A stretch of 36,041 bases of DNA from Bacteroidota bacterium. Lineage in GTDB: Bacteria; Bacteroidota; Bacteroidia; Palsa-948. Where the stretch lies: assembly GCA_023251675.1 (NCBI GenBank), contig JAHEYJ010000015.1, positions 1 through 36,041 of the forward strand. Reading direction: 5' to 3'. Position numbers and translations under genes: made by a program. The notes beneath the pieces were generated by a model. The model ran no database searches, was not told the DNA's origin, and worked only from the letters and a program-made list of their open reading frames with translations. Positions 16,982 to 20,018 of the stretch are shown piece by piece (position 1 is the first letter of the stretch; each line of letters begins with the position of its first letter).

Positions 16982-17599
16982 ATGAAAAAACAAAAAATAA
17001 TAGTAGGAATTACCGGCGCCAGCGGTGCTATTTACGCAAAGGTGTTGCTGGATAAACTTGCTGCTTTGAAAGATCAGGTGGAAGAAGTCGGCATTGTGAT
17101 GAGCGATAATGCAAAGCAGGTCTGGGAAACAGAATTACACCCCACCCCTGTCCCCTCCCCAAAAGGAGAGGGGAAGTTGGACGTGAAAATAAATTTCTAT
17201 AATAAAAATGATTTCACGGCTCCCTTCGCATCCGGCTCTTCGGATTTCAGGACCATGATCGTTTGTCCCTGCTCGATGGGAACGCTGGGAAGAATTTCAG
17301 GCGGCATTTCCAACGATCTGATCACGCGTGCTGCGGATGTAATTCTGAAGGAAAGAAGAAAATTAATTTTAGTCGCCCGTGAAACTCCGTTGAGTTTGAT
17401 CCATATCAACAACATGAAAGCCATCACCGAAGCAGGTGGAATCATTTGCCCTGCCACGCCTTCGTTCTACAGCAAGCCAAAAGATTTTGAAGCCCTTGCC
17501 GCTACCGTGATCGACCGCGTGCTGGATCTTTGCGGACTGGATGTGAAGATGTATCGGTGGGGCGCCCCACCTAAATCCTCCCCGAAGGGGAGGACTTAA
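16982..17599 (+). CDS. ubiX: UbiX-family flavin prenyltransferase, carrying two repeat-derived segments
   Basis: GITGASGAIYAK, CPCSMGTLGRISGG, RETPLSLIHINNM; ATG at 16982 preferred over 16967. Confidence 0.93.
   Translation: MKKQKIIVGITGASGAIYAKVLLDKLAALKDQVEEVGIVMSDNAKQVWETELHPTPVPSPKGEGKLDVKINFYNKNDFTAPFASGSSDFRTMIVCPCSMGTLGRISGGISNDLITRAADVILKERRKLILVARETPLSLIHINNMKAITEAGGIICPATPSFYSKPKDFEALAATVIDRVLDLCGLDVKMYRWGAPPKSSPKGRT
17139..17173. repeat. In-frame palindromic element in ubiX (internal)
   Basis: ACCCCACCCCTGTCCCCTCCCCAAAAGGAGAGGGG; arms CCCCTCCCC/GGAGAGGGG; encodes HPTPVPSPKGEG. Confidence 0.8.
17560..17597. repeat. Palindromic element forming the ubiX C-terminus
   Basis: GGGCGCCCCACCTAAATCCTCCCCGAAGGGGAGGACTT; arms CCTCCCC/GGGGAGG; encodes GAPPKSSPKGRT just before the stop. 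Confidence 0.8.
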
Positions 17600-17667: not shown

Positions 17668-18708
17668 CTACGCGCTCTTGAACTGATTCAGGAACCGGAT
17701 ATCATTCTCGTAGAAAAAACGAATATCGTTGATCTGGTACTTGAGCATGGCGATGCGTTCAATGCCCATGCCGAACGCAAAACCATTATATTTCTTGCTG
17801 TCGATCTTACAATTTTCTAACACTTTCGGATTCACCATTCCGCAGCCGAGTATTTCCACCCAGCCGCTGCCTTTGCAGATCGAACATCCCTTGCTTCCGC
17901 AGATGAAACAGGTCACATCCACTTCCATGCTTGGCTCAGTGAACGGAAAATAAGAAGGGCGCAAACGTATGTCTGTCTTCTCACCGAACATTTCCCGGGC
18001 AAAATACAAAAGCGTTTGTTTTAGGTCAGCAAATGAAACATTCTCATCCACATACAATCCTTCTACCTGGTGAAAGAAACAATGTGCCCGCGCTGAAATA
18101 TTTTCCTTGCGGTAAACCCTTCCAGGGAAAATACTGCGGATGGGCGGCTTTGAATTTTCCATCACACGGATCTGCACAGAGGAAGTGTGGGTACGTAGAA
18201 CAACTCCTCCCCCTTCACCCCCTCCAGAGGGGGACATCTTTACAAAAAAAGTATCCTGCATATCTCTTGCCGGATGGTCTTCGGGCATATTGAGCGCGGA
18301 GAAATTATGCCAGTCGTCTTCCACTTCCCGGTCTTCCTTGACTGTGAAACCGATGCGGGAGAAGATTTCTACAATTTGATTTCGCACAATAGAGATCGGG
18401 TGGCGGGAGCCAAACGCAACCGGGTTAGCCGGTTTTGTCAGGTCGATATCCGCAGATACCGTTTCTTCTCCTCCTTCCAGTTTTTCCTTGTAATGATTAA
18501 ACTTGTCCTGAATCTTATTTTTCAGTTCGTTCAGATTTTTGCCCACCTCTTTCCGCTCTTCATTCGCTATGACCTTGAAATCATCGAACAACGCCGTGAG
18601 CTTCCCTTTCTTTGTCAAATACTTCAAACGGAATTCTTCCAAATGTTCTTTGGATTTGATTTCCATTTTTTCAATTTCTGAAAGGAGGTTGTCTATTTTA
18701 TCCTTCAT
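17668..18708 (-). CDS. pheS: Phenylalanine--tRNA ligase alpha subunit
   Basis: 346 aa; RTHTSSVQIR, EVDVTCFICGSKGCSICKGSGWVEILGCGMV, GFAFGMGIERIAML. Confidence 0.97.
   Translation of the reverse strand: MKDKIDNLLSEIEKMEIKSKEHLEEFRLKYLTKKGKLTALFDDFKVIANEERKEVGKNLNELKNKIQDKFNHYKEKLEGGEETVSADIDLTKPANPVAFGSRHPISIVRNQIVEIFSRIGFTVKEDREVEDDWHNFSALNMPEDHPARDMQDTFFVKMSPSGGGEGGGVVLRTHTSSVQIRVMENSKPPIRSIFPGRVYRKENISARAHCFFHQVEGLYVDENVSFADLKQTLLYFAREMFGEKTDIRLRPSYFPFTEPSMEVDVTCFICGSKGCSICKGSGWVEILGCGMVNPKVLENCKIDSKKYNGFAFGMGIERIAMLKYQINDIRFFYENDIRFLNQFKSA
18203..18236. repeat. In-frame palindromic element in pheS
   Basis: Minus strand GTCCCCCTCTGGAGGGGGTGAAGGGGGAGGAGTT; encodes MSPSGGGEGGGVV before RTHTSS. 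Confidence 0.8.
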
Positions 18709-18715
18709 CTGTATT

Positions 18716-19185
18716 GGCTGTTATTCCCCCTTTGAAGGGGGATTAAGGGGGATGTCTTTAGTTTTTAATTCCTGAATCTTATTTTCCAATGCCCAAATTA
18801 CAATATTTATTCTTTGCTTTACTTCTCGATCGCCAAATCGGATAAAATTAACTCCAAGTTTTTCTAATTTTTCCTGCCTCTTCTTGTCATATGCTTCGAC
18901 TTCATCAGAAAAATGACTGCTGCCGTCAACTTCTACCGCCAGAAATAATTCGTGGCAGTAAAAATCAACGATGTAATTATCTATCGGAACCTGGCGATGA
19001 AACTCCACGCCAAGAGATTTATTCTTTATCTGCTTCCATAACAACACTTCAGAAAGAATCCCCTGCTTACGAAGTTTTCTTGCAAGTCGCTTAAGTTTTG
19101 GATTGTATAGAAGGATTTTGTTCTTCATAAACATCCCCCGTCCGTCAGCTGACGGACACCCCCTTGAAAGGGGGAATTAACAGCC
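18716..19185. mobile_element. Candidate mobile unit: DUF559 gene between inverted palindromic element copies
   Basis: Left GGCTGTTATTCCCCCTTTGAAGGGGGATTAAGGGGGATGT (18716-18755); right, reverse complemented, GGCTGTTAATTCCCCCTTTCAAGGGGGTGTCCGTCAGCTGACGGACGGGGGATGT (19131-19185). Confidence 0.6.
18721..19134 (-). CDS. DUF559-family endonuclease-like protein
   Basis: 137 aa; LSEVLLWKQIKNKSLGVEFHRQVPIDNYIVDFYCHELFLAVEVDGSSHF (D...ExD nuclease-like pattern). C-terminus IPLNPPSKGE is repeat-encoded; the second ATG (19128) may be the true start. Confidence 0.85.
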   Translation of the reverse strand: MFMKNKILLYNPKLKRLARKLRKQGILSEVLLWKQIKNKSLGVEFHRQVPIDNYIVDFYCHELFLAVEVDGSSHFSDEVEAYDKKRQEKLEKLGVNFIRFGDREVKQRINIVIWALENKIQELKTKDIPLNPPSKGE

Positions 19186-19187
19186 GG

Positions 19188-20018
19188 TCATTTCACAACA
19201 GTAATCTTCATCATTATATTCTCCATCGGCCGGTCGGCTCCATCGCGGGGAGATAAAGCAATTTTATCCACCACGCCCATCCCTTCAATCACTTCTCCGA
19301 AAACCGTATAGCTGCCGTCCAGGTGCGGAGTTCCTCCGACTGTTGTATAGGCTTTCCGCTGTTCGGCAGAAAATTTATAGGGCGGAACGTTTGCCAGTTC
19401 TGACAAAGTAAGGCGGTCAATAATTTTTTTAATTGCAAATACACTGTCGGCAATACCTTGTTTCTGAAAATCAATGAATTTTTCAAAAAGGATTTTATTG
19501 TCTTTGTTACGGGCAACATTATTATAAGCCTTCATCGAGGTAATTCTTTTTTCAATCAGGTTAAGCAAGCTGTCGTTAAAAACTTTGCCTTGCGTAATAT
19601 AGAACTGGCATCCTGACGAAGCCTGTTCCGGATTTATTTCGTCACCGTCGCGCGCAGCAGCCAGCACGCCGCGTTTATGAAAAAGCCGGGGATTGAATTC
19701 CGCCGGAATGGTATAACCCACATCTCCCTCTCCCAGCGTTTTTCCTGCAGGTGCATTTTTAGAATCCGGATCGCCACCTTGTATCATGAAGGTATTGATC
19801 ACGCGGTGAAAAAGCAAAGAGTCATAAAAGTGTTTCTGCACCAGCTTCAGGAAATTATCGCGGTGAAGCGGAGTTTCATTATAAAGTTTTATTTTGATGT
19901 TCCCGTAAGAAGTCTCAATAAGTACGATTCGGGATGAATCCTGAGAAAGACAATGGGCAGTAGGCAGTAGGCAGCAGGCAAAAACCACAAGATAATAGGA
20001 TAAAAGGAATTTCTTCAT
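19188..20018 (-). CDS. Secreted cyclophilin-type peptidyl-prolyl isomerase
   Basis: 276 aa; signal peptide; LIETSYGNIKIKLYNETPLHRDNFLKL, FHRVINTFMIQGGDP. Confidence 0.92.
   Translation of the reverse strand: MKKFLLSYYLVVFACCLLPTAHCLSQDSSRIVLIETSYGNIKIKLYNETPLHRDNFLKLVQKHFYDSLLFHRVINTFMIQGGDPDSKNAPAGKTLGEGDVGYTIPAEFNPRLFHKRGVLAAARDGDEINPEQASSGCQFYITQGKVFNDSLLNLIEKRITSMKAYNNVARNKDNKILFEKFIDFQKQGIADSVFAIKKIIDRLTLSELANVPPYKFSAEQRKAYTTVGGTPHLDGSYTVFGEVIEGMGVVDKIALSPRDGADRPMENIMMKITVVK
19951..19980. repeat. Heptamer array GGCAGTA in PPIase signal-peptide region
   Basis: CAATGGGCAGTAGGCAGTAGGCAGCAGGCA; antisense encodes CCLLPTAHC. Confidence 0.85.

Follow-up and report, generated by a model that had tools for sequence, protein, structure and literature searches.

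The stretch of Bacteroidota DNA analysed here (36,041 bp, in the following the window) contains, between the genes for a cyclophilin (PPIase) and PheS, a small open reading frame with palindromes at both ends, and the question arises whether its product moves both itself and these palindromes. The original prediction described inverted palindromic ends around a DUF559-like frame; the arms are present where they had been placed, and a profile search assigns the frame to DUF559 (PF04480) with 91.2 bits against a cut-off of 20.6 (E 5e-26). The whole unit comprises 470 bp (18716–19185) and consists of a hairpin arm, the DUF559 nuclease gene and an inverted hairpin arm. The gene (18721–19134, minus strand; 136–137 aa), identified by the profile match, a fold match and invariant residues, is small, has the same direction as its neighbours and is the sole coding content between the arms; no DDE, HUH or serine/tyrosine transposase is encoded there. 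The left arm (18716–18755, plus strand) is composed of the outer motif GGCTGTTATT, the hairpin CCCCCTTTGAAGGGGG (18726–18741), the spacer ATTAA and the inner purine run GGGGGATGT. It has the pyrimidine-purine-purine (Y-R-R) design of triplex motifs and also codes for the C-terminal NPPSKGE of the DUF559 frame. The right arm (19131–19185, minus strand) is an inverted copy with the order GGCTGTTAATT-CCCCCTTTCAAGGGGG-T-GTCCGTCAGCTGACGGAC-GGGGGATGT and has its hairpin at 19159–19174. Both arms are mutually inverted over 26 nt (77% complementary) with a core of 19 nt (95%), and as single strands they fold better than shuffled sequences (z −2.1 for the left and −3.4 for the right arm). Within the window the perfect sequence CCCCCTTNNAAGGGGG is present in the two arms only; one further site exists in the 3.4-Mb genome, and the reversed-pattern control yielded 0.

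In two details the predicted anatomy stands only in part. The inner motif was thought to overlap both the C-terminal codons and the start codon of the gene. The former is correct (NPPSKGE followed by the stop codon), the latter probably not: the ATG inside GGGGGATGT lies upstream of the aligned start and is probably not used, since homologues align from the next ATG (19126–19128, MKNKI...), the likely start. Likewise, the right arm exists, and the GTCC..GGAC element that had been read as part of its motif order is a second, different hairpin (GTCCGTCAGCTGACGGAC, 19140–19157) nested in the spacer. This hairpin is like the palindromes beside RAYT genes of the same genomes, and a RAYT-like hairpin is also nested in the spacer of one solo arm (L014).

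The pairing of the genes for PheS and the PPIase (17668–20018) is conserved in many relatives. In two genomes of the same genus they are separated by TAATT (5 bp, stop codon included), while the junction in the window (18706–19190, minus strand; PPIase stop, unit, pheS start) measures ≈480 bp, of which all but 9 bp and the stop codon belong to the unit. As relatives inside and outside the genus have an empty junction, the unit is an insertion peculiar to the window genome among those compared. In genome G005 the pheS and PPIase genes are convergent. A target-site duplication had not been visible before and was not seen on re-examination of the window unit by comparison with same-genus genomes (one genome per species). 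Two probable solo arms are located nearby. One lies in frame inside pheS (18204–18238, minus strand; SPSGGGEGGG), in a loop that varies among relatives; its hairpin alone folds no better than shuffled sequences. The other lies within the gene of a UbiX-like flavoprotein (17135–17173, plus strand; HPTPVPSPKGEG), and alignment spans indicate that two same-genus orthologues are shorter by ≈8 residues.

The arrangement is not restricted to this locus. The window genome contains four DUF559 genes, and all four are located between inverted hairpins, each pair being of a different sequence. Homologues were collected together with their flanks, and inverted arms (score of 26 or more) were found in 116 of the 169 units with usable flanks; inverted ends are thus the rule in this clade, and ≈30% of the units are without clearly matched arms (decayed or different). 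Strong hairpins on both flanks were present in 67 of the 169 units but in none of 1512 control windows of the same loci. The two arms of a unit are more alike than arms taken from different units of one genome (medians 31 and 17; Mann-Whitney p 8e-21 over 72 units). Co-variation of the ends with the protein, which the original prediction had named as a check, is apparent from a Mantel rho of 0.43 (0/300 permutations) and, within genomes, of 0.41 (31/1000). Arm polarity distinguishes the two main clades of the protein tree: in type A (window, Mucilaginibacter) the hairpin is the outer and the purine run the inner element, in type B the order is reversed. Polarity clusters on this tree with 11 changes compared to 21.8 after shuffling (0/500), and the value of 11 is an upper estimate because polarity was assigned automatically and a few units received the wrong label (L127, L132 and L142 are type B by eye). 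Neither homologues lacking such ends as a rule nor a conserved placement at pheS across genera was encountered.

Outside of Bacteroidota, armed DUF559 units are present in named records of Hydrogenedentota, Neomarinimicrobiota, Chloroflexi and Ignavibacteriota, and a Deinococcus plasmid carries a unit with near-identical 70-bp arms between paaD and paaZ. The DUF559 gene of Neisseria gonorrhoeae (3hrl family) has similar hairpin and purine repeats on both sides, but in direct and not in inverted order. Carriage by phages or plasmids was considered as well; phages gave 2 weak matches and plasmids 34 records, all below 60% identity and several of them really chromosomes, and no sign of a vector was obtained. 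The widespread and apparently undescribed element family is real. That its units are mobile is very probable from the comparative evidence, most of which comes from species at ≈70–80% protein identity.

How could such a unit move? The core of the nuclease follows the pattern E-D-ExDG-H-D, with E29, D57, E68, D70, G71, H74 and D83 invariant or nearly so, units inside host genes included. A median dN/dS of 0.076 (51 pairs) indicates that the DUF559 nuclease is under purifying selection. The model of the window nuclease (pLDDT 88) has its best fold match in 3hrl, a DUF559 protein, and the second in 3r3p, the catalytic domain of the homing endonuclease I-Bth0305I (E 6e-4); Vsr and TnsA match more weakly. 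Enzymes of the EDxHD type are grouped with PD-(D/E)xK enzymes by their active site (review, PMC3943268). The units are probably undescribed small selfish mobile elements with the nuclease itself as the mover. A full unit would comprise a DUF559 gene for a nuclease with a single domain of Vsr/EDxHD fold, enclosed by two inverted pyrimidine-purine-purine hairpin arms. Solo arms or gene-less pairs of arms would represent non-autonomous copies of it, although arms without the gene may just as well have remained after deletions in full units. The substrate that the nuclease recognises or cuts would presumably be the hairpin/triplex arms, perhaps in single-stranded form, or the target DNA, and host repair would then copy the unit or a single arm into the break. 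Since we know of no strand-transfer chemistry for a restriction-type fold, such a cut-plus-repair pathway appears likelier than a classical transposition. In one clade the unit inserts between genes and has its own start and stop codons. In another clade, arms and nuclease are open in one frame, and the unit survives in permissive loops of host proteins as a plug-in domain.

Insertion in frame inside essential proteins had not been part of the original prediction. In 59 related genomes, about a third of the good DUF559 matches (≈39 of ≈106, hand count) are situated within open frames of at least 300 aa. Pfam detects domains of the host protein on either side of the unit in LeuRS (two sites), RecJ, RecG, SpoIIE, TsaD, TsaB, TsaC, MutS, acetyl-CoA synthetase (Acs), MetH, HsdR, IcmF and others. 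The same situation was found in single-contig genomes in LeuRS, MetH and HsdR (hosts named by motifs), and a search of the same genus with the joined flanks retrieved uninterrupted orthologues. At the RecJ site, genomes G000, G004 and G006 are empty, G002 has two arms without a gene, and G001, G003 and G005 have the full unit. At the Acs site, G001, G003, G004 and G006 are empty; the window genome has one arm there, G005 the opposite arm, and G002 the full unit. The reading frame is kept in all of these RecJ and Acs inserts. Note that the same site is occupied in several species or families in the cases of LeuRS (site 1), SpoIIE, RecJ and MetH. Loops of TsaB and LeuRS contain units in some genomes and unrelated short tandem repeats (AAATCTC-like runs) in others; judged from these occupants, such loops would be permissive hot spots that accept any insert in frame. 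In genome G013 a large SpvB/Tc-toxin-like ORF has one DUF559 unit at its start. A selfish nuclease as a translated, unspliced insert in LeuRS, RecJ, MutS, TsaB and TsaD has apparently not been described, and the DUF559 inserts and hairpin-encoded linkers that protein databases contain should be regarded as mobile DNA rather than as host domains.

The number of dispersed palindromes follows that of the nuclease genes. Solo hairpins were counted as CCCCT-N2-12-AGGGG with the reversed pattern as control. Genomes without DUF559 had 262 hairpins (control 350), those with one or two copies 483 (control 271) and those with three or more copies 1465 (control 180). The excess correlates with DUF559 (Spearman 0.79) better than with RAYT (0.46); the partial coefficients are 0.73 for DUF559 given RAYT and 0.18 for the reverse, and with one genome per family rho is 0.66 (n 47). 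The trend was replicated in 240 further Bacteroidota genomes, where the ratio of hairpins to control rose from 0.86 to 1.68 and 3.43 with rising DUF559 copies. The outer motif GGCTGTT-TCCCC has ≈97 occurrences in seven genomes compared to ≈4 by control. The RAYT (Y1) genes of this genus have palindromes of their own in their flanks (such as GTCCCGTAGGGAC). Comparison of the genomes shows that the unit is a discrete insertion, that the ends belong to it, that the nuclease is under selection and that palindromes multiply in step with its copies. The copy-number correlation could reflect a shared genome plasticity, although RAYT-only genomes are without excess (154 vs 191).

The latter result also bears on the possibility that RAYT/Y1, replication slippage or triplex recombination moves the palindromes and that DUF559 is either cargo or a repair nuclease with structure specificity that repeat-rich genomes retain. 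RAYT genes are indeed present in 45 of the 59 genomes, and triplex repeats have been associated with genome instability without the involvement of any mobility gene (PMC4666352). However, the hairpin excess follows DUF559, the palindromes of RAYT genes are different, with 0 of 20 RAYT flanks of the same genus carrying DUF559-type hairpins, and RAYT was rejected as mover of the hairpins. The nuclease is, moreover, physically inside the arms, and paired arms occurred in no control window of the loci; a passive role of DUF559 is therefore quite improbable. That only ordinary features are present, namely terminators or chance GC palindromes next to a normal orthologous gene, has in its favour that gene-end hairpins are common and that the gene is short and has the direction of its neighbours. 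It is contradicted by the empty junction in relatives and by the 0/1512 control windows, and a terminator role is impossible for in-frame copies inside protein-coding genes, which makes this explanation hardly tenable.

A homing endonuclease gene proper would cut the empty allele and be copied by homologous recombination of the flanks, the palindromes being passive ends or repair scars. The fold nearest to the I-Bth0305I catalytic domain, the sites shared across species or families and the existence of three-state sites are in agreement with homing. Yet units are found at very many unrelated sites, solo arms are dispersed far from a nuclease, and co-variation of arms and protein is unexpected of passive scars. 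The shared sites may themselves be permissive loops and not homing sites, because empty TsaB and LeuRS loops often carry unrelated tandem repeats. We thus consider homing in the strict sense unlikely. Inside host genes, the unit might be removed or skipped by intein-like splicing or ribosomal bypassing instead of being translated as a domain. LeuRS, RecJ, TsaD and TsaB should suffer from an insert of 150 aa, and the hairpin-containing bypassing elements of yeast mitochondria provide a precedent. Against this, Pfam found only host domains and the nuclease domain, and no splicing domain, in 19 host fusions, the frame is kept, and the DUF559 coding sequence is under purifying selection. The AlphaFold model of TsaB with the insert has a folded DUF559 between disordered, arm-encoded linkers (mean pLDDT 68). 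Removal or skipping is accordingly very improbable.

The preferred reading, a nuclease that moves its own unit, can be compared with known systems. The proposed analogy to REP/RAYT (TnpA-REP, REPtron) holds at the genomic level in that dispersed palindromes track the copy number of DUF559, not of RAYT: both systems have a small nuclease gene, inverted palindromes at its borders and related palindromes dispersed singly or as inverted pairs. They differ in the enzyme (DUF559 with Vsr/EDxHD fold here, Y1 HUH there) and in the absence of a GTAG/CGTC foot tetranucleotide, in place of which the window arms have GGCTGTT and GGGGGATGT. The DUF559 gene is itself mobile, multi-copy and in frame in proteins, in contrast to TnpA-REP, which is mostly single copy and without evidence for mobility (PMC8266576). 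With EDxHD homing endonucleases such as I-Bth0305I the unit shares the fold, the acidic/His active-site pattern and the character of a selfish nuclease gene; it lacks an intron, an intein or a long DNA-binding extension, and it has hairpin arms and non-autonomous copies. Like inteins and group I introns, the unit interrupts conserved essential genes and carries a nuclease, but Pfam finds no splicing machinery, and the insert stays open and is apparently translated. In-frame palindromes in protein genes, as they occur here, are known as Rickettsia palindromic elements, for which we know of no linked nuclease; these have another sequence, and the arms of the DUF559 unit measure 35–55 nt. Insertion sequences and MITEs have terminal inverted repeats together with a target-site duplication; in the unit the ends are inverted and no duplication was visible, and no DDE, HUH or serine/tyrosine transposase is encoded between the arms. 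The unit works like REP/RAYT and like homing genes and falls outside the definitions of REPtrons, inteins and classical IS elements. This proposes a function for DUF559, a widespread domain of unknown function.

The arms finally resemble BoxC/PIT/intrastrand-triplex repeats, which are present in >260 genomes and for which a survey of 2015 reported neither transposase or integrase remnants nor mobility genes close by (PMC4666352). The arms combine a block of pyrimidines and the complementary purines with a mirrored third strand, likewise of purines, and a mirror match of 85% or better was found on the 3′ side of 42% of 206 arms compared to 2% on the 5′ side. Y-R-R design, inverted pairs and a common sequence pattern, GAGAGGGN1-6GGGTGAGG, are shared with these repeats; the pattern matches arms of DUF559 units and E. 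coli BoxC (31 copies in one chromosome, control 0). The repeats are described as intergenic, whereas the arms of DUF559 units bound and track a nuclease gene. DUF559 may be a candidate mover for repeats that have had no known one. Tentatively, DUF559 elements could form a separate class that moves through the action of a restriction-fold nuclease on triplex-forming hairpins and spreads within essential proteins as a translated non-splicing domain. They would also supply the mover so far missing for BoxC/PIT/triplex-motif repeats, from Bacteroidota to E. coli, cyanobacteria and Deinococcus.

The question of the mover becomes testable in E. coli via ycjD, a gene annotated as DUF559 that is present in 3370 of 5426 genomes and absent in ≈2050. 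The open-access literature yielded no paper tying DUF559 or ycjD to repeats or mobility. The nearest exact copy of the pattern (BoxC) lies ≈180 bp downstream of ycjD, a closeness expected by chance in an estimated ≈0.5% of cases (31 copies in 4.8 Mb); this link between DUF559 and BoxC is suggestive only. The PF04480 profile had no match in the E. coli control genome, although RefSeq annotates ycjD as DUF559. In K-12-like E. coli, sapF-ycjD with BoxC is located upstream of fabI. Strains without ycjD do not provide a clean empty site, as the two genomes viewed have an RND efflux operon upstream of fabI instead. BoxC of E. coli often forms inverted pairs 24–50 bp apart (near 113070, 637248, 855834 and 3883477), resembling the gene-less pairs of arms.
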